A stretch of DNA of 31,745 bases, from the IMG/VR virus record IMGVR_UViG_3300048625_000059, positions 1 to 31,745 of that record, one strand, 5' to 3'. The DNA is from a virus. The notes beneath the pieces are model-generated. The model did not search any database and was not told the DNA's origin. It saw nothing but the letters and a program-made list of their open reading frames with translations. Below, piece by piece: positions 5,368 to 29,387 of the stretch (the first letter of the stretch is position 1; the number at the start of each line of letters is the position of its first letter). A program made the translations under genes and the position numbers.

Positions 5368-5373
5368 TGATTC

Positions 5374-5403: not shown

Positions 5404-5411
5404 ATGGTAAT

Positions 5412-10358: not shown

Positions 10359-13300
10359 ATGAGTTCAGATAAAAGATTAGTTAATAGATTACCAGAGCGA
10401 GTACGCCGCGAAGACACTCCTGGGGTAAGAATCGACTCGGGGCCGTTTATTGGCATTATTAGAAACAACAATGACCCGACTAGGGCAGGGCGTTTGCAGG
10501 TATGGATTCCTGACTTAGGCGGGAAAAGCGATGACCCGTCTAGCTGGCGCACAGTAAGTTACGCTAGCCCATTCTACGGAACGACATTCCAACCGGACAA
10601 CGTACAGAACAACAAATTTACTGACGTGTCGCACAGCTACGGCATGTGGGCAGTAGTTCCTGATATTGGTAACCAAGTTATTTGTACATTTATTGCAGGC
10701 GATCCCAACAGAGGATTTTGGTTTGCATGTATTAACCCTAATTTAAGTCATCACATGGTGCCGGCAATGGGATCGGGTGGCACAGTTGATAATAATCTAA
10801 CAACCGCGGGCTTAAAAGAAAAGTACGATCCAACCTCTAGCATTTGGCCAGTTGCCGAGTTCAATGAAAACTCAACTGGTGCAATTAAGCCGGGCTGGAC
10901 TAATAACCCTAGACCTGTACACGAATTCCAAGCTAACATTTTAATTCAGCAAGGACTAGATAGGGACGGCTTACGCGGCGCCATTGGGTCTAGCAGTCAA
11001 CGAGAAAGTCCTAGTACAGTATTTGGTATTAGTACACCGGGTAGACCTATCAACGATCCAATGGATAATCCTCAATACCAGGCTAAGTTAAAAGCTGGTA
11101 CATTAACAGAAGCAGACACGGCAATCACCGGTCGAAAAGGTGGCCACACCTTTGTTATGGACGATGGCTCATCTACCGGGGCCGATCAGTTAATGCGTTT
11201 GCGTACCGCAGGCGGGCATCAGTTGTTAATGAATGATAGCGACCGCGTTGTTTATCTTGCCAACAGTGATGGTAGTGTTTGGCTTGAGTTCACTGGAGGC
11301 GGGCACATCAACGTATTCAGTGCAGCAGGCATTAACATGCGCACTGATGGAGAATTTAACTTACACGCAGGTAAAGACATTAACATGCACAGCGGCGGAT
11401 CTATTAAGATGAAAGCCGATGTGTCCATCAACAGTCAGGCCAAAGATTATACAATTAAAGCCGGTAACAGTGTAGGCATTCAGTCCGGTAAAGTTGGTGT
11501 ATTGGCAGATGGCGCCCTGAGTTTGCAGTCTGCCAATGGCGGCTGGTTAAGTGATGGTAAGCTAGCACTACAGGGCAGTAAAGTGTTGCTTAATACTGAA
11601 GCACCGGCTACTGTAACACCTATAGAAGATATTAAAACAAATAAACAAACTGACACTGGATGGGATGACGTAAAGGGTATATGGTCTAACCAAGCAGACG
11701 TGTTTGAAAGCATTGCTACTATTACTCCATCACACGAGCCGTGGCCACGTGGCCCAGGTAAGGGTGTATCGGCAAAGAAGGCAGTTAGTCAATTTGCTGC
11801 GGCACCACAACCAGCAAAGCCTACTAGTGTTTGTGCCCCTCCGGGACAAACGTTGCCACCTAACATCAACAACATTACCCCAAGTGGTGGCAACAATGAA
11901 GCGTTGCTCGAGTCTACATTGACTGGATATGGTCTTACTGACAGAATACAGATTGCAGCTATTATGGCACAGTGTGCGCACGAATCCGGTAACTTCCAAT
12001 TCTTAACCGAGCTTGGAGCTGACAGTTACTTCCAGAAATACGAAGGGCGATCAGATTTAGGAAATAATCAACCGGGCGACGGGTTAAAGTACAAAGGTCG
12101 TGGCTTTATTCAAATTACTGGACGTGACCTATATACACAAGCTGGCTCTTATTTAAATATTGACTTAGTTAACCAGCCGCAGTTAGCAGCAGACCCTGCA
12201 ACAGCAGCAAAGCTGGTATTGTTCTTCTTCTTCCAGTTTAAGAAAAGTAGAACTAACAGTGTTGACTGGAGCGATGTAACAGCAGTGACACGTATTGTTA
12301 ACGGTGGTACAAACGGACTACCAGACCGTGTTGCTAAATTCTCAGCCTACAAACAAAAATACACCAATGGTATAGTTACAACAGGATCCGGTGGCGTATT
12401 AACAGACGGTAGTGGTAATCCAGTACAAACAGGATCAATTAAACTAGATCCGGGTCCGGATATTGCAAAGAACAAACCAGTGGTAAGTCCTGCACCCGGT
12501 GAGTCAATGAAGAAACAAGATGCCCCTAACCCAGGAGCTATTACGTCAGATGAGCCTAAGATCCCTGGTTTAATTCCTACGCAAATGAAAGCGTTGATGA
12601 TTGAAATTGGATTTGCAGAATCCAATTCGGACTACGCTGCAAAGGATACTGAGTTGAATAGAATTGGACGTTATGCGTTTAATGCCAACTTGTTGCGCGA
12701 CAACGGGTATATCAAGCCAGACTATGTTAAAAAGTACAAAGGAGCAGCGATGTTCCAGGCAGGCGCATGGACTGGTAAAGACGGTATAGCAGATGCAGAT
12801 GGCTTTGCAGGAGCAAAAGGAACTCAAGATACATTAATGGAGAAAATCCTTAATGATTACTATACATCATTGGTAAGCAATCGCGGTATTCAGATACAAG
12901 ACGATGTATGTACTGTTGCGGGTATGATGAGCGTTGCATACTTCTTACGAGATAGCGAACGCGGGTTCTTCAGCGGCAACCCACCTGATCAAGCCAAGTT
13001 CTGGAGAGAACAGGGTAATAATATTACCAATGAGCAGAAGCAAACTCCAGACACTGCATATAATCAAGGTCGCTATGCAATCGACGTATTAAGTATATCA
13101 ACTGCTGGCGCATCTAGCGGAGCTGTTGGAACTATAACTCCATCAACTACTGGCATTGACCCTAACGAGGTGTTTACATTTACAAACCGCAGCGGTGACG
13201 CAGCTCACTTTGATGTTGCAACAGTTGACTTTAAGGATCGATTGCTACAAGCTGCCCGCGACTACAAAGCAGCAACCGGCAAGAAAGTTACTATCAGTAG

Positions 13301-13628
13301 CACGGTGCGCACACAGGATGAGCAAACGTCAATTTACGATGGCTGGATTGCTGCTGGCGGCCAATTGCCAGGAAACCCAACAGTTAACGTTAATCCGTAT
13401 GGCAACATTAGCCGTCCGGTTAAGACAGTCGGAAACCACGGACTAGGTATTGCAGCAGACATTGGGGTAGCAGATGCAATCGCAATGGAAAGCATGGGTA
13501 TATTGGCCAAATACGGCTTATATAGATTCGATCCTGCAGGCGACCCACCTCACATTCAGTTAAAGCCTGAATTGCGACCAGCTAATTTAGTTACTATCCA
13601 GAGCTTACCTGGTAATAGCACAGCATAA
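10359..13628 (+). CDS. gp5: gp5-like baseplate spike with three peptidoglycan-hydrolase domains
   Basis: This 1089-residue protein begins with an OB-fold-like gp5 N-terminus (GPFIGIIRNNNDPTRAGRLQ at 28-47) and a repetitive beta-helix-like segment (about 300-410, short VxIxSGG-type repeats) as in membrane-piercing spikes. Three enzymatic domains follow. Residues 505-668 resemble glycoside hydrolase family 19, with AHES (E542 probable catalytic acid) and YKGRGFIQITGR at 577-588. Residues 735-912 resemble a lysozyme/transglycosylase-like domain (GFAES, E754; NRIGRYAFN; YNQGRYAIDVL). Residues 935-1073 resemble an M15 peptidase, with the probable zinc ligands H1027, D1034 and H1065 in NHGLGIAAD and DPPHIQL. 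T4 gp5 (575 residues) carries one lysozyme domain. It would pierce the envelope and open the cell wall on infection. Spike identity is strong; activities are inferred. Confidence 0.85.
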   Translation: MSSDKRLVNRLPERVRREDTPGVRIDSGPFIGIIRNNNDPTRAGRLQVWIPDLGGKSDDPSSWRTVSYASPFYGTTFQPDNVQNNKFTDVSHSYGMWAVVPDIGNQVICTFIAGDPNRGFWFACINPNLSHHMVPAMGSGGTVDNNLTTAGLKEKYDPTSSIWPVAEFNENSTGAIKPGWTNNPRPVHEFQANILIQQGLDRDGLRGAIGSSSQRESPSTVFGISTPGRPINDPMDNPQYQAKLKAGTLTEADTAITGRKGGHTFVMDDGSSTGADQLMRLRTAGGHQLLMNDSDRVVYLANSDGSVWLEFTGGGHINVFSAAGINMRTDGEFNLHAGKDINMHSGGSIKMKADVSINSQAKDYTIKAGNSVGIQSGKVGVLADGALSLQSANGGWLSDGKLALQGSKVLLNTEAPATVTPIEDIKTNKQTDTGWDDVKGIWSNQADVFESIATITPSHEPWPRGPGKGVSAKKAVSQFAAAPQPAKPTSVCAPPGQTLPPNINNITPSGGNNEALLESTLTGYGLTDRIQIAAIMAQCAHESGNFQFLTELGADSYFQKYEGRSDLGNNQPGDGLKYKGRGFIQITGRDLYTQAGSYLNIDLVNQPQLAADPATAAKLVLFFFFQFKKSRTNSVDWSDVTAVTRIVNGGTNGLPDRVAKFSAYKQKYTNGIVTTGSGGVLTDGSGNPVQTGSIKLDPGPDIAKNKPVVSPAPGESMKKQDAPNPGAITSDEPKIPGLIPTQMKALMIEIGFAESNSDYAAKDTELNRIGRYAFNANLLRDNGYIKPDYVKKYKGAAMFQAGAWTGKDGIADADGFAGAKGTQDTLMEKILNDYYTSLVSNRGIQIQDDVCTVAGMMSVAYFLRDSERGFFSGNPPDQAKFWREQGNNITNEQKQTPDTAYNQGRYAIDVLSISTAGASSGAVGTITPSTTGIDPNEVFTFTNRSGDAAHFDVATVDFKDRLLQAARDYKAATGKKVTISSTVRTQDEQTSIYDGWIAAGGQLPGNPTVNVNPYGNISRPVKTVGNHGLGIAADIGVADAIAMESMGILAKYGLYRFDPAGDPPHIQLKPELRPANLVTIQSLPGNSTA

Positions 13629-13636: not shown

Positions 13637-14011
13637 ATGGTAACTTATCGCGGATTTAACACAATTAACCAAGTCAAGAAGTTTAGATTAACAGATCTCG
13701 ACTTGGTTAAGCGCAACCTCTTAAATCATTTTATGATTCGCAAAGGGGAGAAGCTAATGCAGCCAAATTTTGGCAGTATTATCTGGAACATGTTGTTTGA
13801 ACCACTAACTGAAGAAACTAAAAAAGTTATTCTAGATGATGTAACAACAATCGTGGGGTACGATCCACGAATTGCAGTAGACGAAGTTATTATTCAAGAG
13901 CTAGGTAATGGGCTACAACTGCAAATAGCGTTAACATACAAGCCAGCAAATACAACAACAAACATGACGTTAGCGTTTGATAAAAATAGTCAAACGCTAA
14001 CTATGTCTTAA
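13637..14011 (+). CDS. gp25: gp25-like baseplate wedge protein
   Basis: This 124-residue protein has the gp25/lysozyme-like wedge family core: LVKRNLLNHFMIRKGEKLMQ, then PNFGSIIWNMLFEPL at about 54-68 (the conserved P-FG-x-IW-x2-LFEP signature), and YDPRIAVDEV. Length is close to T4 gp25 (132 residues). In contractile injection systems gp25 connects the wedge to the inner baseplate and helps start sheath polymerisation. It follows the spike gene by 8 bases and precedes gp6, the usual order in this module. No ribosome-binding site is evident before the ATG, suggesting coupling to the gene upstream. Confidence 0.92.
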   Translation: MVTYRGFNTINQVKKFRLTDLDLVKRNLLNHFMIRKGEKLMQPNFGSIIWNMLFEPLTEETKKVILDDVTTIVGYDPRIAVDEVIIQELGNGLQLQIALTYKPANTTTNMTLAFDKNSQTLTMS

Positions 14012-14056: not shown

Positions 14057-17000
14057 ATGGCTACTACTACACGTCAAACAAGTTTACTTGTCCAACAGGA
14101 TTGGACAAAATTGTATCAAACTTTCCGCAACGCGGATTTCCAAAGTTATGATTACGAAACACTACGCAAGTCAATGATTGACTATTTGCGTACATACTAT
14201 CCTGAAGATTTCAACGACTTTACTGAATCTAGTGAATACATCGCATTAATTGACTTAATTGCGTTCTTAGGGCAGAGTCTTGCGTTCCGTACAGATTTGA
14301 ATGCACGTGAAAACTTCTTGGATACAGCAGAACGACGCGACAGCGTATTAAAGCTAGCCAAGTTAATTAGTTACAATCCTAAGCGAAATTTGCCTTCCAC
14401 TGGATACTTAAAAATCAACAGTGTAAGCACAACAGAAACAATTACAGACAGCAACGGTCTAAACTTAGCCAACTTGTTAATTGGCTGGAATGATGCTGCA
14501 AACGAAAACTGGTTAGAGCAATTTACTTCTATTATTAACGCATCTTTATTGAGTAGCCAAGTAGTAGGCAAGCCCGGCGCAAGCAACACTATCAACGGTG
14601 TATTAACAGACGAATATGGTATTAGCATTGTTCCTGGTGTACTCCCAGTCTACAAGTTTACATCATCCATTGAGGGCATTAACATGCCGTTTGAGGCAGT
14701 GAGTGCAACTAGCTATAACCAAAGCTATATCTACGAAAAAGACCCAAAGCCAACTGGTGTGTTCAATATCTTGTCTCGAAACGACAACCAAGGCAATGGA
14801 TCAAACAATACTGGTTTCTTTGTTTACTTTAAACAAGGTGAGCTGAAGTCATTGGACTTTTCTCTAACTGACAGTTTGCCTAACCGTGTTGCTAATATTA
14901 ACTTTGATAATATCAATGACATCGACGTTTGGTTGTACCAATTAACTTCATCAAACATTCCAGGCGCAAAGTGGACACAGATTCCAGCAATCGGTGGATT
15001 GAATGTAGTATACAACCAAGAAAGTCGGCGTAACTTATATCAAGTTGCAACTCGTGCAAACGATCAAATTGACTTGGTATTCGGTGATGGCGCATTTGCA
15101 AACGTACCGCAAGGTAACTTCCGTTTGTACTATCGTCAAAGCAACGGATTGAATTACAAGATTACTCCTGATGAAATGCAGGCTGTGAGCTTTACTATTA
15201 ACTATGTCAGCCGCACTAACCGCATCGAGACCCTGACTATATCTGCTAGCTTGAACTACACAGTTACAAACAGCAGTGCAAAAGAGTCCATTAACGATAT
15301 TCGCACAAAAGCACCTCAACAGTACTATACTCAAAACCGTATGGTAACTGGCGAAGACTATAACACATTGCCGTTTACTAGCTTCAATAACATTTTGAAA
15401 GTTAAAGCGGTAAATCGTTCTAGTTCAGGCATTAGTCGTTACCTTGACGTAGTTGACAGTAGCGGAAAATATTCTAGTACCAACATCTTCGCACAAGATG
15501 GTATGGTTTATAAAAACTATCAGAATACCACAACGTCGTTTACGTATTCAACAATTAACGATATTAACAAGACTATCTTTAACATTGCAAAGCCAATGAT
15601 TGCAACTAAAGAGTCGGTGCATTTGTACTACAATACCGCAGCAACCTTTGTCCCATCTACTACTGCAAATTGGACGAAGGTTTCTATTGCAAACGGTACA
15701 ACCACCGGATATTTTAACGCAGGTACTAATATTGGAATTGGCGCAACCGGTAATTACCAATACATCACCATGGGTGCATTGATTAAGTTTGTGCCGCCTA
15801 CTGGATTTTACTTCGACAAGAACAATCAGTTGCAAGCGGGTACTCCTTCTCTAAACACGGACAAGACTTACATTTATGCGTCGGTTGATTCTACATCATC
15901 GCCAACATTGGTAGTGAGTCAGATTGTGCCAACTGATGCAATAATTGAATCTATTATTCCAGTCTTTAAGAATGATTGGACAACCTTGCTAATTTCAAAT
16001 ATTGCGAGTCAGATCCAAGCTAACAAAAACTTTGGCGTAAGCTACTCTGTTCTAACACCTGGTGCGCAACCAACATGGAATATTATTCCTAACACTAATC
16101 TGAGCTTAGGTGATTACAGCCTAGCTTCGGCAGGGACTGCAACAGACACCAGCTGGTATTTGGCATTCACATATAACAACGGTCAGTATACTATTACTCA
16201 GCGTAATTTGTATTACTACATTGAAAGCGTATTAGAAACACGTTTCTATTTTGATCCTAAAGTTAAAACTTACGACAGTAACACTGGCTTGATTCTCAAG
16301 GATCATATTAAGATTCTAAAGACCAACAGCATGCCGGATTCGTCATCGCCGCTTACTGTTGACCAAAATTGGTATGTATATAACAGCATTGTGCAAGCCG
16401 ATGGTTACCAAGACACCAAGAAAGTATTGATTACTTTCCCAGACACTAATAACGACGGTATCCCGGATGATCCTACATTGTTTGAAACTTTAGTAGCACC
16501 GGCGGTGAACTCGTTTAACAAATATGTATATTTCAAGCAGGTAGTAAGCTACAGCAGCTTCATTGATTACGTTGTAGTTGACGCAGGCACGATTGTTGCT
16601 ACATACGGAACTAAAACAGCAATCTCATTGAATGCAAGTTTATACAACGAAACTCAAATCTTCTACGCATTCACGGAAAATAAATTCTATGTGTTAACTA
16701 ACGGAAACCTAATAGAAAACACTCAATATATTGCTCGTGTTGGTCGCCAGGACTTGTATTTCCAATATCGTCATAACAGTCCTAACAACCGCCGTATTGA
16801 CCCAAGTCCAAATAACATTATGGATTTGTATTTGTTAACAAAGACTTACAACACATTGTATACCGCATGGATACGCGATAGCAGTAATAAAATTTCTCAA
16901 CCAGTGGCTCCAACAACTGAAGAGTTACGTGTAGATTTTAGTACGCTAGAGAACTTGAAAGCCATGAGCGACACAATCATTTATAACTCAGCTAAGTTCA

Positions 17001-17389
17001 AGCCAATCTTTGGTGCTAAAGCTCCAACAGCATTGCAAGCAACGTTTAAGATTGTTAAGAACCCCAATGTGTCAGTTAGCGATAATGACATTAAGAGTCA
17101 AGTGATCTCAGCTATTAACGCATACTTTGACATTACTAACTGGGACTTTGGCGAGACGTTCTACTTTTCAGAGTTGAGTGCATATTTGCATAACAAACTA
17201 ACTCCTAACGTGAGCAGTATTATTATTGTTCCAAGTTCGGGACAGGGGCAATTTGGTGGCTTGTATCAAATCAATGCAGAACCAAATGAAATCATTACTA
17301 GTGCAGCTACAGTTGATAACGTACAAATTATCAGCGCAATCACCGCATCACAATTGAACCAGACTGCATCTGGGTTAAATATTGTATAA
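14057..17389 (+). CDS. gp6: gp6-like baseplate wedge protein, enlarged
   Basis: This 1110-residue protein starts with the conserved gp6 N-terminus: SYDYETLRKSMIDYLRTYYP, FNDFTESSEYIALIDLIAFL, LNARENFLDTAERRDSVLKL and SYNPKRNLPSTGYLKI (all within residues 28-120). The C-terminal gpJ-like dimerisation region is at about 965-1080 (LKAMSDTIIYNSAKFKPIFG, SVSDNDIKSQVISAINAYF). T4 gp6 has 660 residues; the extra length lies in the middle (about 450-900), which looks beta-rich and probably forms surface domains. In T4, gp6 makes the continuous ring that holds wedges together and unlocks during contraction. A late-type promoter and an AAGG site precede the ATG. Confidence 0.9.
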   Translation: MATTTRQTSLLVQQDWTKLYQTFRNADFQSYDYETLRKSMIDYLRTYYPEDFNDFTESSEYIALIDLIAFLGQSLAFRTDLNARENFLDTAERRDSVLKLAKLISYNPKRNLPSTGYLKINSVSTTETITDSNGLNLANLLIGWNDAANENWLEQFTSIINASLLSSQVVGKPGASNTINGVLTDEYGISIVPGVLPVYKFTSSIEGINMPFEAVSATSYNQSYIYEKDPKPTGVFNILSRNDNQGNGSNNTGFFVYFKQGELKSLDFSLTDSLPNRVANINFDNINDIDVWLYQLTSSNIPGAKWTQIPAIGGLNVVYNQESRRNLYQVATRANDQIDLVFGDGAFANVPQGNFRLYYRQSNGLNYKITPDEMQAVSFTINYVSRTNRIETLTISASLNYTVTNSSAKESINDIRTKAPQQYYTQNRMVTGEDYNTLPFTSFNNILKVKAVNRSSSGISRYLDVVDSSGKYSSTNIFAQDGMVYKNYQNTTTSFTYSTINDINKTIFNIAKPMIATKESVHLYYNTAATFVPSTTANWTKVSIANGTTTGYFNAGTNIGIGATGNYQYITMGALIKFVPPTGFYFDKNNQLQAGTPSLNTDKTYIYASVDSTSSPTLVVSQIVPTDAIIESIIPVFKNDWTTLLISNIASQIQANKNFGVSYSVLTPGAQPTWNIIPNTNLSLGDYSLASAGTATDTSWYLAFTYNNGQYTITQRNLYYYIESVLETRFYFDPKVKTYDSNTGLILKDHIKILKTNSMPDSSSPLTVDQNWYVYNSIVQADGYQDTKKVLITFPDTNNDGIPDDPTLFETLVAPAVNSFNKYVYFKQVVSYSSFIDYVVVDAGTIVATYGTKTAISLNASLYNETQIFYAFTENKFYVLTNGNLIENTQYIARVGRQDLYFQYRHNSPNNRRIDPSPNNIMDLYLLTKTYNTLYTAWIRDSSNKISQPVAPTTEELRVDFSTLENLKAMSDTIIYNSAKFKPIFGAKAPTALQATFKIVKNPNVSVSDNDIKSQVISAINAYFDITNWDFGETFYFSELSAYLHNKLTPNVSSIIIVPSSGQGQFGGLYQINAEPNEIITSAATVDNVQIISAITASQLNQTASGLNIV

Positions 17390-17408: not shown

Positions 17409-20400
17409 ATGGCAGCTACAAAAACAATTAACTTTTTACCTGAGATTTTTCAAACCGACACAAACAAGAAATTTCTTAACGCAACCTTAGACCAATTAAT
17501 TAGTGAACCTAATTTTAAAAAGGTCAACGGATACATTGGTAGAAAGTTTGCGCCGACGTTTAAAACAACAGACAGCTACATTAACGAAATTGATGCAGCT
17601 CGTCAAAACTATCAGCTTGAGCCAAGTACTGTGATTGTTAACCCACAGACCGACACAGTTGATTTTTATAGCAGCTATGTTGATTTAATTAACAAGATCA
17701 AATTCTACGGCGGTAACGTTGACAATCACAGCCGTTTATTCTCTAACGAAATGTACAGTTTTGATGGCAAATTTGATTTTGACAAATTCATTAACTTCTC
17801 TCAGTACTACTGGATTGAAAATGGCCCAGATTCGGTTATGATCAGTGCAAGCGGTGTACCAACTGAATACACATGGGACGTAACAATCGATTCTACAACT
17901 GGCGCATATAATTTTGCAAGTAAAGCCGGTGCAGACAATAACCCAAACATCACGCTAGCATACGGCGGTAAGTACACTTTTAATGTTAAAGCTGGCGAAT
18001 TCTGGATTCAGGCTAAGCCTGGTACTAGCGGATTTGATAGCGATCATCCAAACATCAATGTGCGTCAAGTGCTTGGCGTAACAAACAACGGTGCAACCAC
18101 AGGCTCAGTTGAGTTCATTGTTCCGCAACCTAACGGCCAATCTCGTTACACTGACATGCCATTGGCACAAAGTGTTGACTATGCAACTACGTTGGCTTAT
18201 AGAGATATTAATGGAGCAACGTCTGCAGATTTCATTGCTCAATTCAACGGATTCGACGGTGTAGCAGCAGCAATTAACGGCAAGAAAATTATCTTTGTTG
18301 GCAGCGAGATCGACGATTACTTCTGGACTAGTGCATTAACAAACAACGACGTGGTGCCAACCGTTGATCGCTCTAAGACTTGGCAAGTTCAAGTAGATCA
18401 GAATACTGACGTTATCACATTAGTACCTGCAGAAATTGTAAACAAGAACGAACGTGTTTACATTAAGTCGGGTAACTCTAATGCAAGCAAGAACTTCTTT
18501 CTTGACTATACTGGATTTTACAAAGAAGTTCCGTTACTAACTGCACCGTTAAAAACTCTATTTTATCAAAACTCATTGAGCGGTTTATCAGCCGGTCTTA
18601 TTTCTCTAGTGGATCCAGCAAGTGCAGTAATTGATCCATTGTCGGATATTGTAGGACAAAAATCCTACATTAGCCCAACTGGTGTGGTGTTCACTAATGG
18701 ACTTCGCATACGATTTGATACCACAGCAACCGGCGGGTATGCAGATAACGAATACTATGTTGAGGGTGTGGGGTCTGCAATTAGGTTAGTACCAGTGTCG
18801 ACATTGATTGCACCGGAATTGCCGAACTTAACAGCACACGACTACTTAACTATTAACCGTAGCAGTCTAAACGTTAACGCATGGAGTCGCAGTAATCGTT
18901 GGTTCCACGTTGATGTGTTGAAAGCCACCGCTGCGTATAACAACGAAGATCTAGTATTAGACCAAACGCTAAGAGCAAGTCGCTCAATTATTGAATTTGA
19001 ACCTGACGTGCAGTTGTTTAACTATGGATTCGTCGCAAAGAATCCTGTTAACATCTTTGATACAAGCATTACTAATGCGTACACTCAGGTTGAAAACAAA
19101 TCTACAAACAACGCATCTACTCTAACAGTAACCAATGGCGGAACTACTCTAACACTAACCCACGGCGACAGAGTAATTTTCTCTAATGATTCAAGCCCAA
19201 CTGTTAGAAGTAAAATCTACGTGTTTAAAATCGTAGACATCAGTGAAAACATTAACGTCCAGCAATACATTGGCAATATTGTTGAAGCCGACGATGCCGA
19301 GATTGTTGCCCGCAATAACTTATTGGTAACTGGCGGAGATAGTGCTGGAAAAGAAATCTGGTATGATGGCACTAGCTGGCACACCGCCCAGCAAAAAACA
19401 GCAGTAAACCAAGCACCGTTGTTTGACATGTACGACGAAGCTGGTCGCAGCTTTGGTGATACAAACTATTATGTTAATACCAGTTTTATTGGTACTAAGT
19501 TATTTTCCTACAAACCTGGAACTGGCGCGAACGATCCTGTGCTTGGATTTCCATTAAGCTACCGCACGTTTAACAACGTGGGCGATATCCAGTACGAAAA
19601 CAACTTTGATGTTGATACGTTTACATACCTAGTTAGCCCTTCAACTAAAGTTGAGAGCATTAACACCGGGTATCTACATGTAACTACAACCATTGATTCA
19701 CACGAAACAACTAACATCTGGACAAAAACAACAGAGGACAGCAAACAGTATCAAATTATTCGTCACACTGCTGACGGTACTAACAACTTATTTGAAATTG
19801 ATATATTGCCTAACCCAAGCGCAGATATACCTAACGTTAAAGTTTTAGTAAACAGTAAGGTAATAGATGTAAACAACTTTGGGTTGACACAAGTTGGGGC
19901 ACGTTATGCAGTGTTGATTAATCCAACAATGTTAGCCGCTGGCGACAGCGTTGACTTGTTAATCTACAGCGGCAGCGTTAGCAAGTTGGGCTATTACCAA
20001 GTTCCATCTAACCTAGATAACAACTCGTTGAACGGGAACTTTACTTCGTTGACATTGGGGCAAATTCGTAACCATTTGATTACAATAAGTCAAAATTCTC
20101 AATCCGTGACTGGTACAGTACCCGGTAACAACAACCTACGAGATATCAATATCAAAGCCAACGGTGGTAGCATTTTGAAACATGCTAGCCCTGTGGTATA
20201 CAGCAGCTTGTTCCTAGTTGATGGGACTATGAATTTTGTCGATGGTCTACGCCATGCACAAAAAGAATACGCTAAGTTTAAGAATAAAATTCTTGAGTTA
20301 TCGACTCAAATTGAAATTGATGTAAACGACATTGCTGGGTCACTTGACACTATTATTGGTAACATCAATGCAGTAAAGAATTCTAACTTCCCGTGGTACT

Positions 20401-23400
20401 ATAGTGATATGGCTCCGTGGGGACAAAACAAAACTACACTGCCACCATACACTGTATTGGATCCTCGTATCCGTGAGTATGAATTAACTAAGATCTTTAA
20501 CGACACTGAGTTAAGCAACCTTGCGGTGTTAGTATATTTGACCCGCACAGTCAACGGAGTAAGCACAAAAGAGTTGCTAGTCAAAGGACAAGACTATGTG
20601 TTTAACAGCGACCGTCCTACTATTACAGTAGTTGACTCGTTTAACTTAAACTACAATGACATTATTACCATTGTAGAATACAGCAACACTGATGGTAATT
20701 ACATTCCTGAGACTCCGTCTAAGATGGGCATGTGGACTACATCGGTGCCTCAGATTTATTCTGATGATACTTTTGCTAGCGGCCCTGTGATGGTAATCCA
20801 AGGACACGACGGTAGCATTACTCCTGCATTTGGAGATTATCGCGACGATATCTTGCTTGAATTTGAACGCAGAATCTACAACAACATCAAGCAGGAATTA
20901 ACTCCATCAGTGGTACAAGCAGGAAGCCAGTTCCCTGGACGCTTCCGCGTGACAGACTACAGTCTAGCTGAGTTTAACCAAGTTCTAAGTTCTAATTTCT
21001 TGAGCTGGGTTGGTAATAATAGACTTGACTACACTACAAACAACTATTTCCAAAGTAACAACCCTTGGACATGGAACTACAAAAATTTCAAAGATGTACT
21101 AACAGGCGATTACCTGCCAGGTACATGGAGAGCAATTTTTGATTACTTCTATGACACAGACCGCCCTCATACTCACCCATGGGAAATGTTAGGGTTCACC
21201 GAGAAGCCATCATACTGGGATGACCGTTACGGAGCTGCTCCATACACCGGCGGTAACTTAGTACTGTGGACCGATTTGAGCTTGGGATATATCCATGCTG
21301 GAGACCGTGCTGGTATCTATGCAGAGTTTGCTCGTCCTGGTTTATTAAATATCATTCCGGTAGATGACAACGGTAATTTGCGTAGTCCTGAAAAATTTGC
21401 AGTACTAGATTTTGATAGTTCAAAAGCAAACTCTAGTTATGCAGTGGGCGATTTTGGCCCAGTGGAAACTGCATGGCGTCGTAGCAGCGATTATCCGTTT
21501 GTGCTAATGCAAACGCTAGCTCTGCTAAAACCAGCATACTTCTTCTCAAACTTTGCTAACATTGACCGTTACAAGTACAATAATAGTATCGCGCAGTACT
21601 TGGTATCTCCTGGTAACCAACACCTTACACCTACTAGCTTAGAAGTAAACGGCTCAGTGGATTCCACTGGTGCTATCCAGCGCACTGCTGGTTATGTTAA
21701 CTGGATTAGCGATTACCTAAAGAATTTGGGGATCGGCGACCCTCAGACTAAAATCAAAACTTACTTGAAAAACTTGAATGTACAGTTGAGCTACAAAGCG
21801 GCTGGCTTTACAGACAAGCGTTATATCAACCTGCTAGCAGAACAAGGTAGCCCAAATTCAACTAGTGACAGTATTATTATTCCTGATGATAACTATCGAG
21901 TTGAACTGTTTAAATCGGTTCCTACTAACAAGATTGCGTACAGTGCGGTTATTGTTGAGCGAAGCCAGAATGGGTACACAGTAAGCGGATACAACCTAAG
22001 TGGTCCTTACTTTACTATTGTCCCTAGCTTATCTAACAACAACGCCTATAGTATCACCGCTGGTAAAGCAACAGGGGTAATATACAAAGACTATCAGAAA
22101 GTTCGTGTACGAGTTCCGTACGGCTTTGAATTTAAGACAACTCAAGAAGTAGTTGACTTCCTAGTAAGCTACCAACGTCAATTGCAAAGCCAAGGGTTCG
22201 TGTTCACAGAATTTGATAACGACCTAGGTGCAAAACAAGACTGGATATTGAGTGCAAAAGAATTCTTAACTTGGGCGCAACAAGGATGGCAAGCAGGTAA
22301 CGTTATTATCTTGAGTCCAGTTAACCAGTCACTATCAGTTAAGACAGCAAACACAGTAGTAGATGAGATTACAAACTTCCCAACAGGATCTAAAGTACTA
22401 GACCCTAACTTTAGCGTAATTAAGCCTAGCGCATTCTCGGTAATTCGTGAAGACAATACGTTTAATATTTCGACCACAAAGGGACAAACTATCGCGTTTG
22501 CAGAATTGCATCTAGTGCAATACGAACACGTATTGATCTTTGATAACAAGACTTCGTTTAACGACATCATCTATAGCCCAGACACTGGTAACAGACAGTT
22601 CCGATTGAAACTGATTGGTAGTAAAACTGCTGACTGGACAGGCGCATTGAATCCAGCTGGTTTCATTTACAACAATAACAAAGTTGATGAATGGCAACAA
22701 GGCAAGGACTATAAAAAAGGTGCATTGGTTTCCTACAAGAATAGTTACTATGTTGCATTAGGCAAGGTAGTTGCGGCTGACTTGTTTGACATTAAACAAT
22801 GGAAGCAAATTAATCAGAACAGCATTAAGACTGGTCTATTGCCTAACTTTGCAACCAACGCTGCAAAATTTGAATCTATTTACGATATCAACAATCAGCC
22901 AATTGATGAAGAACTAAACTTCTATAGTAACGGGATCACTGGATTCAGAGAGCGTCAATATCTAACTGATTTGGCACTTGACGTAGAAACACAAAGCAAG
23001 TTCTATCAAGGATACATCAAGCAAAAGGGTACAAAGAACGCGATCCTTGCACTAGCTCAAGCACAATTAGCTAACATCAGTAACGAGATTACAGTTACAG
23101 AAGAGTGGGCATTGCGTGTTGGTGAATACGGCGCAACTGATAGTGATCGTTTTGTTGAATTGCAACTTGATGAAGCAATTATTACCAACAACCCTGCTCC
23201 TATTCAGTTGTTGACTGATAACGAAACTCCTGTATATGGCGTAGCACACTATTATCCTCGTGAAGTATACAGAAGCTCATTAACACATACTCCGTCTATG
23301 TTTGGGGATTATGTTCCAACTGCCGATGATGTAGTATATCCAACTGCGGGTTACGTAAACATTGATGACGTAGATGATACAATATTTGACATCCAGAACT

Positions 23401-26400
23401 TTGCAGATCTAGGTAACGTACTAAACAAAATTGGTACTGGATACACTATCTGGGCAGCTAAAGGATTTAACGGCGATTGGGACGTTTACCGCGTTAGCGA
23501 AACTGAGTGTGCAGTAACCGGACTATCATATAGCATCAACAACTATGCAACGGTTACCACAAGTGCAGCGCACAATTTAACCATTGGCGATATTGTTGCA
23601 GTTCGCAGATTTGATGACAGATTTGATGGGTTCTATCAAGTATACGCCATTAATGGAATCAATAGTTTCACTATCGGCCTACGTCAAAATTACAAACTAC
23701 TAAGCCAGCTACAAACTGTATCAGGCAACGGCATTTTATTTAAGTTAGCAAGCGGCCGTATTGCAAGCCCAAGCGAAGTAGATTCGCATACACCATTGTA
23801 TGGATGGGTCCAGAATGATAAGGTATGGGTTGACACACTAGACACCGCAGGCAACTGGGGTGTGTACAATAAAACTAGTCCGTGGAATTCTGCTACAAAG
23901 ATTTATCTGAACAGCAGTGAATACCAAGGACAGGATAACTTTGGTCAAAGTTTAAAAATTTCCAGTGATGGAAAAACAATGTTTGCTGGTGCACCAAATA
24001 GTGGTACTGGACGTGCAGCAATTTTCTTAAAAACCACAGCCGGCGAATGGCTAGAGAACAGCAACTTTGTAGTAAGCAGCACTGGTACCAGTGGCTTTGG
24101 TCAAGTGATTGACGCGAGCAATAAGTCATTTGTTATTGCTGCGCCGAGAAGTTTATCAAACACTGGTTATGTTTACGTATACAGTGTTGACGTGGCCACG
24201 GGTGTTTCGATGAGCCAGGTGATAACAGTGCAAGGTGGACAGGCAAATGATTTGTTTGGAGCAAGCCTTGCAGTTAGCCAAGACGGCAACTGGTTATACA
24301 TCGGTGCACCGGGTGCAGGAAAAGTCTATGCGTATGGTTTGTTAACCTCAGCCACCGCTATTCAGACTCTGACAGCCACCGGTAGCAACAATGACTTTAC
24401 ATTAACTAATCAAACAATCACTGATCCAAGTGAATTGTTGGTTAACAGTAACACAGCGTTAGTTCCTAACGTTGATTACACAATTATTAACGTTAGCGGA
24501 ACATACAAGATTCGATTCTTGGTCAACGGAGTTGCTACTCCACCAGCAGCTGGTCCAATCTTAGTGACCGTACACTCTCGTTACAAACTAATTGATACAT
24601 GGACTCAGGGTAACGGGTTCGGTACAAGTGTTGCTTGTAACCCTGCAGGTGACCAAATTGCCATTGGCGCAAACACCGCAACTGTTGGCGGCATTGCAAA
24701 TGCTGGTAAAGGATATGTATACGACCGTATGGTTGAAGGTTTCTATGCAAACGGTTCAAGTAATACATTCATTCCTGTTCGCCCAATTGGTAGCACACGC
24801 AGAGTAACTGCAAACAATGTTGAACAAGTAGCAGGCATTGATTACAATATCATTGGTAACAACGTTCAGTTTGTGACTGCACCAATCGCGGGTACTTTGA
24901 TCAACATTGAAACTAACCAATTTAACTTAATTCAATCTGTATCTAGCAGCACAGCAACTGATGGTCAACGCTTTGGTACAAAAGTAGTTATTAGCCCGGA
25001 CTCTACTAAAATTTACTTTAGTGCTCCGTACTTCAACTTACCGTACTACAGAAGCGGCGCAGTATACACCTTTGCAAACCAAGGTCGTCTATACGGATCC
25101 ATTGTTGGTACAGTGGCGAACCCAACTGTTACTCCCGGGCACAGTATCCGAGTTAACACAGTTGAAATTCAGTTCACTAGCAATACATTAGCACACGTTA
25201 TTAGTAAAATTAACGGTGCTGGTATCCCTGGTATCACTGCGTTTAATGACAATGGACACCTAAAGATTGTGTCTGCTCGTGTTACTTCGTTTAACAACGT
25301 TGGTGTTCTTACCAAGAGCAACAAGCTAGACGTGCTACCAGGTAGCGGAACAACATTGGCCCCTGGAACAGGAACAGCACTAGCTGACTTGGGGTTGACA
25401 ATTTTTGTACAGACACAAACAATCACACATCCAGCAAGCAATGAGAACGAATTCTTTGGTTCAGCACTTGCAATTAGTGATAATTCCACTACGTTGGCCA
25501 TTGGTAGCACCGGAGCTAAGACAATTAACGGAACATCGTTTGATTCAACAGAAACAACGTTTGACGTGGGCAGCTTGAACTTTAAGGATGCGATTGCTAA
25601 CAGCGGCGCAGTATACATATACGACTTGATGGACAACCCATACGAATCAATTGATAATCCAGCGTTGTTTGCTTATGTACAACAGTTGCAAGCACCAGCA
25701 CTAGATGATAATTTTAACTTTGGTGCGTCAATCGACATTGTTGGAAATTATATTGTCGCTGGAGCAATTAATGATTACTCGATTACTGCAAGAGGCGGTA
25801 GTATCTATGCGTTTGAGAATACACTAGGCACACAAGGTTGGGACCTAATTCGTTTCAACGAAACTCGTGTTGAACCAAACAGCATTGATAAGTTATACAT
25901 CTACAACACAAAAACACAAAACATTACTTCTAGATTAGATTATTTTGATCCAGTTAAGGGTAAGTTGTTGGGCGTTGCACAACAAGATATCGATTATGCG
26001 TGTGTAGCTGACCCAGCAATTTACAATGATGGTACTGGAGTTGATACTGGTCCAACTAGTAAGTTTGACACAACCTTCCACTGGACAAATGCGCAAGTTG
26101 GCAAGACATGGTGGGACACAGATCAGATGCGTTTCATCGACTACGAACAAAGCGACATTGTTTATCGCAGCAAGCACTGGGGTGAAATGTTCCCAGGTAG
26201 TACCGTTAAGGTATACGAGTGGGTAGAGAGCAGTGTATTACCAAGCAAATACGTTGAAAACGGCGGTAACGGCATTCCTAGAGATGAATCCAATGGTGCA
26301 TTTGTTAGCTATACATTTGTTGATGCAGCAACAGGCCTGTTCAAGACATTGTACTATTTCTGGGTGAGCGATAAGACAACAGTTGATGTTATTAAAACTA

Positions 26401-29387
26401 ACAGAACAAACAGCGTAAGCACTATACAACAAATTCTTAAGAGTCCCAAGGATCAGGGAATTGCGTATGTTGCAGCACTGGCTAAAAATGCAATTAGCTT
26501 ATATAACGTAAACTCATACCTAACTGGTACTGATGCAGTTCTGCATATTGATTACAGCCCTGCAACTAGCACAAATATTATCCACAGCGAATACCAATTG
26601 GTTGAGGAAAATAGCGATGCGACTCCAATTCCGGATCGTATCATTACTAAAATGCAAGACAGCTTAGCCGGTCTTGACCGTGCGGGACTAGTGGTACCAG
26701 ACCCACAGTTGACAGCAGTCGCGCAGGTTGGTATTGATATCCGCCCACGTCAAACAATGTTTGTTGATCGTCTTGCAGCACTGGAGAACTTTGTAAAATA
26801 TGTAAACAGTATTTTTGCATTGTATCCGATTGTTGATAGCCGTGACATTTCTACACTAGAAGCCGGAGCTCCAATTCCAGCTGCCGGAACAGGTGCATGG
26901 GACGCTAAGATTGCAGAACGTGTTGAGCTAGATTACATTGTAACCTCAGCCCTAGCTGATGGATACAAGATCCTAATTGAGTCCGACAGTGAGCACAACA
27001 ATCTGTGGACAATCTTTAAATGGGTAGCAGCAACACAAAGCTGGTTCTTGGTACAGATCCAAAGTTTCGCTACTAGTATCTATTGGACAAAGATTGATTG
27101 GTATGCAACAGACTTTGACTACACACAAAAGCCAACATACACCATTGATCGCTATTACCAGCTTGACAAACTAGCTCTAGCAGTTGGTGACACTATCAAG
27201 CTGAACGACAATGGCGCAGGCCGATTCGTCTACTACAGAGTTGCTAGCGATATGTCGTTAACTCAAGTTGGCATTCAAGACGGAACCATTGAGTTGTCTA
27301 GTAACATCTACGACCTAGAAGCGGGCAATATGGCGTTTGATAACGACAACTTTGACACTGTTCGATTCGATCAGAACCCTAACCAAGAAGTTCGCTATAT
27401 TTTTGATAGCGTATACAACGACATCTTCACTAAGGATATCAAAGTTGAATTTAACAAGCTATTCTTTGGTTTAGTAAATTACATCTTCAGCGAACAAAAG
27501 TCTACAGATTGGATCTTTAAGACTAGCTTCATCCGTGTACTACATAAGATTCGTGATCTTGTGCAATATCCTAGCTATGTTAAAGATAACCAAACTTTCT
27601 ACGAAGACTATATCAACGAAGTTAAGCCATATCGTACACAGATCCGTGAGTATGTGCCTTTGTACAGAGGTACTGATTACCTACACGCCGGTGCAACTGA
27701 CTTTGATTTGCCTTCATATTATGATACAGTGTCTAGCACCTTCCGCAGCCCGGATGGCACATACTCAACTGACGCTGAATTGTTAACTACTGCTAACTAT
27801 GCAGATTGGAATAACAATCACTCTTATAGTGTAGTTGAAATTGACATTGCCAATGGCGGCACTGGTTACACATTAACACCAAACGTTGAAGTGTCTGGTG
27901 GCAATGGGTCTGGCGTAGTTGCACATGCAACAATTAACGTCACATACGGAAACATCGCAAGTGTTACTATTGTTAACCCTGGGTCAGGATTTACTACTCC
28001 TCCGGTTGTTACAGTTAACGGTAACGGAACTGGTGCAATTCTTGTACCTAAATTAAAGAACGTATTCTTTAAGCCTGACCCATCTAGCAGCTACAACACA
28101 GTGCGCACATTTGATACAACTATTAAATTTGACCGCACTAACTTTAGTAGCAACGTAGTAGACTGGGCTGCGAACACCGCTTACTCTGCAACTATTTCGA
28201 CAGGCGCGGGCACAGGAAACATCTGGCTAGCCAGCGGAAACCTAGTAACGTATAACAACATCATCTACAAGCCAGTGACTGCAAATGCAAACACTCATGC
28301 TACATTTGATTCTAGTTTGTTTGAAGTTGTTAATGCTGGTAACGCACTGATTAGAGCAAACGACCGCGTTCTAGGTTACTACCAACCGGGTGTTGGGATG
28401 CCAGCTCGTGTAGTATCTCTATTAGTTGATGGCATTGAATACCCTGGAGTAAATGTAACTGGTGGAAAGTTTGATAACTTTACCAGCAACATCAATGTTG
28501 GGGCAAACGTGGCATTCTTTAGCGCGAACTCAAGTATCGTTAGCACCAATTCAACTGTTAATTTCGTTGATTTAGGTTACGAACTAAACCAACAAATCAC
28601 AGTGATTGGGTCAACTAACAATAACAAGGTATTTAATATTGTTGACGTAAGCGCAAACACAATGATCTTAGATACTGCATTAGTATCAAACGAAAGTGTT
28701 GGCGCAAACGTAACATTACGTTACTTGGATTACAATGATAGTAGCAAAATTGACAGCACTATCCAAAGTACCTACCTTGATAGTGCATTGGGCACCCGTC
28801 CAGAAGATATCAATATCGATGGTGGCGCATACGTAGACACTTTCAGCAGCCATGCACCCGAAGAATTGATTCCCGGGCGTGTATACGACACATTGTCAAT
28901 GACAGTGTTTACTAAGATTTCTGGTAATACAGTAACTCTTGGGCACCGCGTATTCCAAAACATGAACGGTCAAGTACAGTATCACCGCATCGCAGATGCA
29001 AATACAACTACTTTGAGCGCCAACTTATCTCTAAGTGATAGTAACGTTCATGTAACAAATGCTAGCGTATTGCCTGCACCTAACGCAGAACAGGGTCATC
29101 CTGGTATTGTGTTTATTAACGGCGAAAAGATCACATATTACACAATCGACACTGTAAATAATGTGTTGGGTCAAATCCGTCGTGGTGTTGATGGCACAGG
29201 CGCACCGTTAACTCATGTTGCTGGTAGCCGTGTTGTTGATGCTAGTATGCAACAGATTATTCCTGGAGCAACTGCAACAGAATCGTGGTTAAACATGACA
29301 GCTAACGTAGCAGATGGAACAGGATTTAACGGATCTACAACAACAGAAGTAACGTTCCTTAAAGCTAGCCCAAGTTATACACCATGA
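17409..29387 (+). CDS. Giant baseplate/tail structural protein in gp7 position, with FG-GAP propeller
   Basis: One uninterrupted frame encodes 3992 residues, 38% of the window. Its N-terminus (FLPEIFQTDTNKKFLNATLD; NGYIGRKFAPTF; SRLFSNEMYSFDGKFDFDKF) and segments such as HPWEMLGF near 1256 and GGNGIPRDESN recall very large structural proteins of T4-like aquatic phages. It lies where T4 has gene 7 (1032 residues), so it probably forms part of the wedge periphery. Recognisable modules: several beta-sandwich-like repeats with a VDYTI or QDYVF strand, a carbohydrate-binding-like W-x-x-GKDYKKGALV segment at 1762-1800, seven FG-GAP blades at about 2170-2825, a paired GGTGYT/GSGFTTPP repeat at 3477-3548, a second W-x-x-NTAY-type segment near 3586, and a GIVFINGEKITYY motif near 3898. 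Its stop overlaps the next ATG as ATGA. Confidence 0.7.
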   Translation: MAATKTINFLPEIFQTDTNKKFLNATLDQLISEPNFKKVNGYIGRKFAPTFKTTDSYINEIDAARQNYQLEPSTVIVNPQTDTVDFYSSYVDLINKIKFYGGNVDNHSRLFSNEMYSFDGKFDFDKFINFSQYYWIENGPDSVMISASGVPTEYTWDVTIDSTTGAYNFASKAGADNNPNITLAYGGKYTFNVKAGEFWIQAKPGTSGFDSDHPNINVRQVLGVTNNGATTGSVEFIVPQPNGQSRYTDMPLAQSVDYATTLAYRDINGATSADFIAQFNGFDGVAAAINGKKIIFVGSEIDDYFWTSALTNNDVVPTVDRSKTWQVQVDQNTDVITLVPAEIVNKNERVYIKSGNSNASKNFFLDYTGFYKEVPLLTAPLKTLFYQNSLSGLSAGLISLVDPASAVIDPLSDIVGQKSYISPTGVVFTNGLRIRFDTTATGGYADNEYYVEGVGSAIRLVPVSTLIAPELPNLTAHDYLTINRSSLNVNAWSRSNRWFHVDVLKATAAYNNEDLVLDQTLRASRSIIEFEPDVQLFNYGFVAKNPVNIFDTSITNAYTQVENKSTNNASTLTVTNGGTTLTLTHGDRVIFSNDSSPTVRSKIYVFKIVDISENINVQQYIGNIVEADDAEIVARNNLLVTGGDSAGKEIWYDGTSWHTAQQKTAVNQAPLFDMYDEAGRSFGDTNYYVNTSFIGTKLFSYKPGTGANDPVLGFPLSYRTFNNVGDIQYENNFDVDTFTYLVSPSTKVESINTGYLHVTTTIDSHETTNIWTKTTEDSKQYQIIRHTADGTNNLFEIDILPNPSADIPNVKVLVNSKVIDVNNFGLTQVGARYAVLINPTMLAAGDSVDLLIYSGSVSKLGYYQVPSNLDNNSLNGNFTSLTLGQIRNHLITISQNSQSVTGTVPGNNNLRDINIKANGGSILKHASPVVYSSLFLVDGTMNFVDGLRHAQKEYAKFKNKILELSTQIEIDVNDIAGSLDTIIGNINAVKNSNFPWYYSDMAPWGQNKTTLPPYTVLDPRIREYELTKIFNDTELSNLAVLVYLTRTVNGVSTKELLVKGQDYVFNSDRPTITVVDSFNLNYNDIITIVEYSNTDGNYIPETPSKMGMWTTSVPQIYSDDTFASGPVMVIQGHDGSITPAFGDYRDDILLEFERRIYNNIKQELTPSVVQAGSQFPGRFRVTDYSLAEFNQVLSSNFLSWVGNNRLDYTTNNYFQSNNPWTWNYKNFKDVLTGDYLPGTWRAIFDYFYDTDRPHTHPWEMLGFTEKPSYWDDRYGAAPYTGGNLVLWTDLSLGYIHAGDRAGIYAEFARPGLLNIIPVDDNGNLRSPEKFAVLDFDSSKANSSYAVGDFGPVETAWRRSSDYPFVLMQTLALLKPAYFFSNFANIDRYKYNNSIAQYLVSPGNQHLTPTSLEVNGSVDSTGAIQRTAGYVNWISDYLKNLGIGDPQTKIKTYLKNLNVQLSYKAAGFTDKRYINLLAEQGSPNSTSDSIIIPDDNYRVELFKSVPTNKIAYSAVIVERSQNGYTVSGYNLSGPYFTIVPSLSNNNAYSITAGKATGVIYKDYQKVRVRVPYGFEFKTTQEVVDFLVSYQRQLQSQGFVFTEFDNDLGAKQDWILSAKEFLTWAQQGWQAGNVIILSPVNQSLSVKTANTVVDEITNFPTGSKVLDPNFSVIKPSAFSVIREDNTFNISTTKGQTIAFAELHLVQYEHVLIFDNKTSFNDIIYSPDTGNRQFRLKLIGSKTADWTGALNPAGFIYNNNKVDEWQQGKDYKKGALVSYKNSYYVALGKVVAADLFDIKQWKQINQNSIKTGLLPNFATNAAKFESIYDINNQPIDEELNFYSNGITGFRERQYLTDLALDVETQSKFYQGYIKQKGTKNAILALAQAQLANISNEITVTEEWALRVGEYGATDSDRFVELQLDEAIITNNPAPIQLLTDNETPVYGVAHYYPREVYRSSLTHTPSMFGDYVPTADDVVYPTAGYVNIDDVDDTIFDIQNFADLGNVLNKIGTGYTIWAAKGFNGDWDVYRVSETECAVTGLSYSINNYATVTTSAAHNLTIGDIVAVRRFDDRFDGFYQVYAINGINSFTIGLRQNYKLLSQLQTVSGNGILFKLASGRIASPSEVDSHTPLYGWVQNDKVWVDTLDTAGNWGVYNKTSPWNSATKIYLNSSEYQGQDNFGQSLKISSDGKTMFAGAPNSGTGRAAIFLKTTAGEWLENSNFVVSSTGTSGFGQVIDASNKSFVIAAPRSLSNTGYVYVYSVDVATGVSMSQVITVQGGQANDLFGASLAVSQDGNWLYIGAPGAGKVYAYGLLTSATAIQTLTATGSNNDFTLTNQTITDPSELLVNSNTALVPNVDYTIINVSGTYKIRFLVNGVATPPAAGPILVTVHSRYKLIDTWTQGNGFGTSVACNPAGDQIAIGANTATVGGIANAGKGYVYDRMVEGFYANGSSNTFIPVRPIGSTRRVTANNVEQVAGIDYNIIGNNVQFVTAPIAGTLINIETNQFNLIQSVSSSTATDGQRFGTKVVISPDSTKIYFSAPYFNLPYYRSGAVYTFANQGRLYGSIVGTVANPTVTPGHSIRVNTVEIQFTSNTLAHVISKINGAGIPGITAFNDNGHLKIVSARVTSFNNVGVLTKSNKLDVLPGSGTTLAPGTGTALADLGLTIFVQTQTITHPASNENEFFGSALAISDNSTTLAIGSTGAKTINGTSFDSTETTFDVGSLNFKDAIANSGAVYIYDLMDNPYESIDNPALFAYVQQLQAPALDDNFNFGASIDIVGNYIVAGAINDYSITARGGSIYAFENTLGTQGWDLIRFNETRVEPNSIDKLYIYNTKTQNITSRLDYFDPVKGKLLGVAQQDIDYACVADPAIYNDGTGVDTGPTSKFDTTFHWTNAQVGKTWWDTDQMRFIDYEQSDIVYRSKHWGEMFPGSTVKVYEWVESSVLPSKYVENGGNGIPRDESNGAFVSYTFVDAATGLFKTLYYFWVSDKTTVDVIKTNRTNSVSTIQQILKSPKDQGIAYVAALAKNAISLYNVNSYLTGTDAVLHIDYSPATSTNIIHSEYQLVEENSDATPIPDRIITKMQDSLAGLDRAGLVVPDPQLTAVAQVGIDIRPRQTMFVDRLAALENFVKYVNSIFALYPIVDSRDISTLEAGAPIPAAGTGAWDAKIAERVELDYIVTSALADGYKILIESDSEHNNLWTIFKWVAATQSWFLVQIQSFATSIYWTKIDWYATDFDYTQKPTYTIDRYYQLDKLALAVGDTIKLNDNGAGRFVYYRVASDMSLTQVGIQDGTIELSSNIYDLEAGNMAFDNDNFDTVRFDQNPNQEVRYIFDSVYNDIFTKDIKVEFNKLFFGLVNYIFSEQKSTDWIFKTSFIRVLHKIRDLVQYPSYVKDNQTFYEDYINEVKPYRTQIREYVPLYRGTDYLHAGATDFDLPSYYDTVSSTFRSPDGTYSTDAELLTTANYADWNNNHSYSVVEIDIANGGTGYTLTPNVEVSGGNGSGVVAHATINVTYGNIASVTIVNPGSGFTTPPVVTVNGNGTGAILVPKLKNVFFKPDPSSSYNTVRTFDTTIKFDRTNFSSNVVDWAANTAYSATISTGAGTGNIWLASGNLVTYNNIIYKPVTANANTHATFDSSLFEVVNAGNALIRANDRVLGYYQPGVGMPARVVSLLVDGIEYPGVNVTGGKFDNFTSNINVGANVAFFSANSSIVSTNSTVNFVDLGYELNQQITVIGSTNNNKVFNIVDVSANTMILDTALVSNESVGANVTLRYLDYNDSSKIDSTIQSTYLDSALGTRPEDINIDGGAYVDTFSSHAPEELIPGRVYDTLSMTVFTKISGNTVTLGHRVFQNMNGQVQYHRIADANTTTLSANLSLSDSNVHVTNASVLPAPNAEQGHPGIVFINGEKITYYTIDTVNNVLGQIRRGVDGTGAPLTHVAGSRVVDASMQQIIPGATATESWLNMTANVADGTGFNGSTTTEVTFLKASPSYTP
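23920..25880 (+). other. Seven-unit FG-GAP (integrin-like) beta-propeller region inside the giant protein
   Basis: Seven Phe-Gly positions open similar units at residues 2178, 2230, 2283, 2404, 2522, 2683 and 2771 of the giant protein. Each continues as FG-x-S/x-hydrophobic strand, S/N-D-G/N turn, hydrophobic strand ending in (A/G)AP or IGA, then a VY-aromatic strand. Spacings are 52, 53, 121, 118, 161 and 88 residues. The two shortest equal bare blades; the longer ones hold inserted beta domains between blades. Confidence 0.7.

Follow-up and report, generated by a model that had tools for sequence, protein, structure and literature searches.

The carrier gene and its neighbours

The window analysed here is a whole stretch of 31,745 nucleotides (positions 1 to 31,745 of virus record IMGVR_UViG_3300048625_000059). 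An ORF on its plus strand (17409..29387) encodes a virion or baseplate protein of 3992 aa, which was assigned to the phrog_10938 family by profile and homologues and which bears the propeller module described below. The phrog_10938 profile (virion structural protein) matched this ORF in 4 stretches with 1144.8 bits. In tblastn, the first 2991 aa of the ORF had homologues in 60 phage records, including PA5oct, Atu_ph07, SCTP-2, RaK2, and GAP32, and the homologous gene in the PA5oct record carries an ESI-MS/MS note. The excerpt available of the CBB paper describes CBB_236 as a large structural protein, numbered beside a baseplate wedge protein and detected in virions (PMC5259590). Likewise, in the excerpt on phAPEC6, gp245 is a 382 kDa structural protein numbered beside a wedge protein and detected in virions (PMC7247149). 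By the position and size given in these excerpts, both probably belong to the family of the 3992-aa protein.

The ORF is directly preceded by a gp6-like baseplate wedge gene (14057..17389, +; phrog_10646, baseplate wedge, 976 bits; also phrog_219). Before it, the gene at 13637..14011 (+) matched phrog_43 and phrog_261, both baseplate wedge, a family that we take to be the one known as gp25. The name gp25 is in use for this wedge family in the excerpt of the CBB paper (PMC5259590). The order of the gp25-like gene, the gp6-like gene, and the propeller gene was kept in the relatives whose records show these genes. The preliminary description had placed the propeller within a baseplate protein, and the company of these two genes agrees with this. 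A gp5-like hub/lysozyme gene (10359-13628, +) encodes a single chain with Phage_base_V, a class I chitinase-type (GH19) domain, and, below the cut-off, a DUF2345 stretch. Beside the structural block, on the opposite strand, two radical-SAM genes, SbcC/SbcD-like genes, and a late sigma factor gene occupy 414-6284 (-).

In T4, gene 7 directly follows gene 6, as the gene of the window protein follows the gp6-like gene, and the window protein is about four times as long as T4 gp7. The position fits an identity with T4 gp7, but the sequence tests of it failed. Gp7 domains V and VI and the helical domain (PF21427, PF21456, and PF21428), all found in T4 gp7 as a control, were not listed up to E 10 in the window protein. 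The comparison of A9 and A8 with T4 gp7 (a single sequence) by hhalign gave probabilities of 0.1–0.2%, the N-terminal 1000 aa lying outside this comparison. An identity with the P-HM1 protein annotated as gp7 was also dropped, as no homology to the window protein was detected. In this protein of the cyanophage P-HM1 (L177, 2389-9666), a lectin domain, Laminin_G_3, was matched (E 8e-20), which is one more indication that wedge proteins acquire such domains.

Seven FG units and the predicted propeller fold

The module extends over aa 2157-2806 (23877..25826, +), as delimited by FG-GAP_2, an AlphaFold2 model, the integrin alignment, and the junctions at aa 2155 and 2807. A propeller had previously been placed at 23920-25880; it does lie there, and its bounds were refined to the positions given here. 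The seven FG units begin at aa 2178 (23940..23945), 2230 (24096..24101), 2283 (24255..24260), 2404 (24618..24623), 2522 (24972..24977), 2683 (25455..25460), and 2771 (25719..25724), all on the plus strand. Their spacings were 52, 53, 121, 118, 161, and 88 aa, which is exactly the range of 52–161 residues reported earlier for seven FG-starting units. The 650-aa module holds 7 of the 13 FG dipeptides of the whole protein (binomial p 0.002). Counted with a pattern that was defined after the sequence had been seen, the module has seven FG...GAP-like units, and 5000 shuffled versions of it had 0.58 on average and never more than 4; a plain FG count of seven was reached in 165 of the 5000 shuffles. 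Pfam FG-GAP_2 (PF14312) matched the whole protein with 37.8 bits (E 2e-9), above the curated cut-off of 23 bits, and the insert alone with 56.1 bits (E 4e-15). No other Pfam family matched this insert at E 0.01.

The AlphaFold2 model of aa 2010-2850 had a mean pLDDT of 85.8 and a pTM of 0.83. According to its strand list, which was assigned by hand, blades 1–6 have four strands each, with extra strands in the inserts, and blade 7 has three. Propellers usually close by the first strand completing the last blade. In the strand order read by hand from the list alone, strand 151-156 of the model precedes blade 1, which fits this usual closure, with the last strand of blade 7 predicted to come from the start of the module. 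The preliminary description had named a predicted structure with no propeller, or with fewer than six blades, as the outcome that would speak against it, and seven blades were readable in the model.

The longer gaps between FG units had been ascribed to inserted beta domains, and extra sequence and strands were indeed seen in blades 3, 4, and 5, together with a shorter insertion in blade 6. By the AlphaFold2 strand list, with bounds set by eye, blade 3 has a small beta domain of about 76 aa, placed by strand order between strands C and D (aa 2313-2388; 24345..24572, +), and blade 4 has another of about 65 aa (aa 2441-2505; 24729..24923, +). The larger inserted domain in blade 5 is about 108 aa long (aa 2559-2666; 25083..25406, +).

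A profile of 42 relatives was compared with the PDB and matched integrin alpha chains (alpha4, alphaM, and alphaIIb) with E-values down to 5e-12, over parts of the module only, the best stretch being profile positions 220-315. When the model was compared with the PDB by VIA-align, all 50 of the 50 matches listed were integrins (Z 36.8–39.8). The best row was integrin alphaM, with Z 39.8, 346 residues aligned, an rmsd of 2.7 Å, and 17% identity; this alignment covers model residues 148-803, which correspond to window aa 2157-2812. The integrin alpha propellers aligned from model residue 148, where the first integrin residue falls, to about 797–806, and integrins without an inserted I domain were aligned with the phage module from their first residue to about residue 440. 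Plain Foldseek was less specific. A WD-type chain (E 2e-10) headed its list, followed by an integrin (E 4e-10). Integrin, WD, and lactonase propellers are mixed in this list, and the whole-model TM-scores were low (0.34/0.60 for the best integrin row). The profile, the model, and the integrin alignment agree on the seven-bladed FG-GAP propeller that had been proposed. Aa 2157-2806 are thus predicted, with little room for doubt, to adopt a seven-bladed propeller fold of the integrin FG-GAP type.

The phage module shares the FG...GAP units and the seven blades with FG-GAP_2 and integrin alpha propellers. Unlike integrin alpha, it has extra beta domains in blades 3–6 and is embedded in a phage structural protein with flanks of phage baseplate sequence, and the 3992-aa protein is not claimed to be an integrin. 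A further difference lies in the calcium loops. Integrin alpha has DxDxDG calcium loops in its FG-GAP units, whereas the integrin DxDxDG-type loop was absent from all seven FG units of the window module; the search for DxDxDG-like loops suggested in the preliminary description was therefore negative in these units. A loose calcium-loop pattern occurred in one place only in the window module, just before the seventh FG, and in 13 of the 89 clusters of relatives defined below, partly outside FG-GAP loops.

A bounded slot and its contents in relatives

The module lies between two conserved flanks, one upstream of it (anchor A3, aa 1569-1947; 22113..23249, +) and one downstream (anchor A4, aa 2807-3147; 25827..26849, +). 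IMG/VR was searched with these flanks and not with the propeller, and 160 loci were taken (the best 80 of 149 and the best 80 of 530), so that the sample is biased towards relatives of the window. Together with L001-L012 and the window, these loci gave 176 ORFs with an anchor match. The 150 ORFs with both anchors were used, and they contained 115 distinct inserts, which formed 89 clusters when grouped at 80% identity with 70% of the shorter insert covered. All 47 of the 47 downstream flanks matched phrog_10938.

FG-GAP_2 was found in 77 of the 89 clusters with both flanks (35/37 and 42/52; E 0.01). The 12 others, all scanned directly, were four clusters with YHYH, L036, L078, and six cultured isolates (L004-L009). 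The YHYH domain fills the slot in L109, L162, L165, and L171 (4/89 clusters; E 1.8e-26 or better), and the slot is empty in one cluster of the 89, L078. The residues aligned to window aa 2155 and 2807 are adjacent in L078. L051, which is sister to L078 on the core tree (support 100), carries FG-GAP_2. These two loci were 61 and 62% identical on the two sides of the slot, and the residues between the two matches numbered 407 in L051 compared to 3 in L078. In the YHYH group, the upstream border was at window aa 2152-2157, the same as that of the propeller within a few residues, and the downstream border was at 2811 in 3 of 5 loci, the match beginning at 2792 in L162 and at 2785 in L165. We are confident, on these alignments, that the propeller occupies a sharply bounded and optional slot in the baseplate protein.

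The phrog_10938 proteins of RaK2, PA5oct, Atu_ph07, SCTP-2, and other jumbo phages share the core on both sides of the slot with the window protein, at about 25–30% identity over 53–65% of the query. Unlike the window protein, those of the six fetched cultured phages (L004-L009) had no FG-GAP propeller in the slot. Pairwise blastp of the isolates showed conserved flanks and an intervening part of variable length, short in RaK2 and Vibrio phage 2.275.O and longer than 1000 aa in Atu_ph07 and Phosso. No cultured phage carrying the propeller in the slot was found in the collection: a search with the window propeller gave 0 records at E 1e-5, and two diverged propellers had one and two matching records, which covered 22 and 8% of the query. 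Outside the 89 clusters, four relatives came from genome collections (L173-L176), and two of them, L173 and L174, gave matches to parts of the propeller profile. The other two, contigs in a MAG named as Gammaproteobacterium (MED685), have 632 and 822 aa between the anchors and gave no match to the propeller profile at E 1e-3.

Two further candidates for the content of the slot were discarded. A GDSL-type esterase domain in L036 (7376-9997; E 3e-11) had been considered as a third content, but on the junction map it lies at another site of the protein, upstream of aa 1979 in window numbering, which is perhaps a second place of exchange; the propeller slot of L036 holds about 180 aa of other sequence. 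The slot content of SCTP-2 looked LamG-like by eye and was dropped, as it had no Pfam or PDB match. In the window protein, downstream of the slot, a glycine-rich domain (27831-28049; about aa 3475-3547), which overlaps a profile match of phrog_460 (head closure), matched several separate places in the large insert of Atu_ph07 and Phosso. From the sequence, it appears to be a repeat module common to these three.

The core of L078 was modelled with a pLDDT of 79 and a pTM of 0.50, and structure searches with this model matched single domains only. Just before the slot, a small beta-barrel resembled endosialidase, ubiquitin E1, and phage tail-tube domains (Z 8–11 over about 75–80 residues). Further upstream, a chitin-binding-like domain was matched (Z 8–9 over 45 residues), for which the Pfam match to CBM_5_12 was below the cut-off. 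These two domains weakly fit a carbohydrate-facing region. No gp7 chain was among the 50 matches listed by Foldseek or VIA-align for the L078 core.

The core tree was built with a quick method from the upstream core (89 rows, 934 columns) and is unrooted, with long branches that include L007, L036, and L004 and an odd letter make-up in L005 and L007-L009. On this tree, three changes explain the presence of the propeller and one explains YHYH (support 96). The 42 rows of the profile represent 42 of the 89 clusters, picked for the similarity of their inserts to that of the window, with five similar ones with very long inserts excluded. In all 861 pairs of these rows, the module showed lower identity than the upstream core (mean 37% vs. 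56%), and in all 41 comparisons of a row with the window it showed lower identity than either flank (means 39, 57, and 49%). Since the rows were picked for propeller similarity, the selection acts against this result of faster divergence. The identities of propeller and core were correlated (Mantel r 0.88; 0 of 999 permutations as high), which indicates that the module was mostly inherited with the protein and is long-standing rather than quickly swapped. Frequent lateral swapping of the slot content was unsupported, given this correlation and the three propeller changes on the tree.

A survey of the variability of the propeller faces had also been proposed. The upper loops had a variability of 2.09 bits, the lower loops 2.21 bits, and the strands 1.76 bits. 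The loops were thus more variable than the strands, yet upper and lower loops were alike and neither face was preferred, so the idea of a hypervariable ligand face was rejected. Part of the L016 insert weakly matched P-HM1 gp7 (E 8e-3) and was considered as a counterpart of the insert in blade 4 of the window module. Of the 73 residues in this part, no more than 26 could be aligned with the window protein (aa 2365-2394), so that the matched part is mostly an extra stretch of L016, and this candidate was not kept.

Possible function of the propeller

The fold, the borders of the slot, and its contents rest on sequence or prediction. Of the roles suggested in the preliminary description, the binding of a receptor, a place on the baseplate rim, and the docking of fibres are all hypothetical. 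We infer, with a probability of roughly 0.5, that the propeller serves as a surface-binding module or head on the virion. In this reading, a giant baseplate protein, whose gene holds the position of T4 gene 7, would have a self-contained seven-bladed propeller plugged into its slot. The two ends of a closed propeller lie at one edge, so that the core stays undisturbed whether the propeller is there, missing, or exchanged for another domain. Located in the baseplate and exposed at the virion surface, such a binding head would help the baseplate to hold a polymer of the host surface, either sugar or protein, during adsorption. Some relatives have YHYH, a predicted hydrolase, in its place. In favour of this reading were counted the FG-GAP_2 and integrin matches, the predicted model, the empty slot of L078 beside its filled sister L051, the YHYH contents, and the faster divergence of the module. 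According to the excerpt of one report, YHYH domains are often fused to tail or baseplate proteins and are predicted to act as tail-associated, metal-dependent hydrolases (PMC7824862), and YHYH domains were noted in structural genes of pelagimyophages in the excerpt of another (PMC7029224). The YHYH tail proteins of jumbo phages and pelagimyophages are of a different family from the propeller, and YHYH stands in the same slot in four clusters. Several results count against a binding head. Many receptor-binding tips are expected to be hypervariable, and no hypervariable face was seen; the fast divergence would also fit a relaxed, unimportant decoration. The Mantel correlation of 0.88, the WD-type first row and low whole-model TM-scores of Foldseek, and the failure to find a cultured carrier were counted on the same side.

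The main competing explanation, which we regard as rather unlikely, is that the propeller is a structural docking platform holding tail fibres or neighbouring wedge proteins. Its inheritance with the core, its retention in 77 of the 89 clusters, and the lack of a hypervariable face would agree with such a part, and in phage A-1(L), according to the excerpt available, an insertion domain of a wedge protein holds the long tail fibre (PMC10966104). However, the baseplate can evidently be built without the propeller, as the slot is empty in L078 and filled in its sister L051, holds YHYH in four clusters, and has no propeller in six cultured relatives; the propeller also diverges faster than either flank. 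These features of an optional and fast-diverging module would suit a passive decoration or spacer with no specific partner as well, and so would the lack of an integrin-type calcium site in the window units and the restriction of the loose pattern to 13 of 89 clusters. We consider such a decoration improbable, since FG-GAP_2 was retained in most clusters, a complete predicted seven-bladed fold of 650 aa costs about 2 kb of genome, and one alternative content of the slot is a predicted hydrolase and not filler.

It is very improbable that the propeller is itself an enzyme, either a glycosidase or a lyase. Many propellers are catalytic, including phage endosialidases (PMC4901313, excerpt), and the domain just before the slot in L078 resembles the endosialidase beta-barrel, with Pfam End_beta_barrel in 3 of 52 inserts. 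Lactonase propellers also appear in the Foldseek list, and PF10282 (Lactonase) matched weakly in 2 of 37 and 1 of 52 inserts. But the matches listed by VIA-align were all integrin propellers, which are non-enzymatic, FG-GAP_2 was the sole family at E 0.01 in the window insert, and the beta-barrel is a widely used fold that is also like ubiquitin-E1 and phage tail-tube domains.

Propellers are already known from phages. In the excerpt of one paper, phiKZ gp131C has a seven-bladed propeller as a C-terminal domain at the baseplate periphery, and phi11 Gp45, a receptor-binding protein, has a five-bladed propeller (PMC4901313). As described there, both place a propeller in a tail part that contacts the host. 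Unlike gp131C, with its C-terminal domain, and Gp45, a separate trimeric protein in that account, the window propeller is an internal insert of a protein at the wedge position. What is new, judged by the open-licence PMC literature, is an integrin-type propeller in a baseplate protein together with its slot, which were not found described there. In the same literature, no report combined FG-GAP with either phage and baseplate or bacteriophage and propeller. With these genomes, the integrin-type FG-GAP propeller is now placed in contractile phage baseplates.

For the surface-binding head, a wider but more tentative proposal can be made. The protein at the wedge position of RaK2-type phages may be a fixed accessory port that is filled with a binding propeller of the integrin type or a potentially cutting YHYH enzyme, or left empty. 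Keeping, losing, and replacing a domain at one point suggests an exchangeable tool for touching the host surface. If this is true, the way in which an uncultured jumbo phage engages the host envelope would be readable from its genome, with the slot content as the marker, and an integrin-type fold would serve the virus side of a virus–host contact. No role has been assigned to many of the giant structural proteins in jumbo phages, and here an internal module with exact borders is defined. Its fold is confidently predicted and could be produced by itself, natural versions of the slot are empty or hold something else, and a core tree is available; what such a baseplate touches on the host thereby becomes directly testable.

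In BFVD, the matches were viral proteins with an FG-GAP or propeller fold, including those of uncultured Caudovirales and of giant viruses of eukaryotes. A 393-aa protein of Atu_ph07 named hemagglutinin and a virion protein of cyanophage S-TIM5 matched the propeller model, which indicates that the fold is present in other phage genes.
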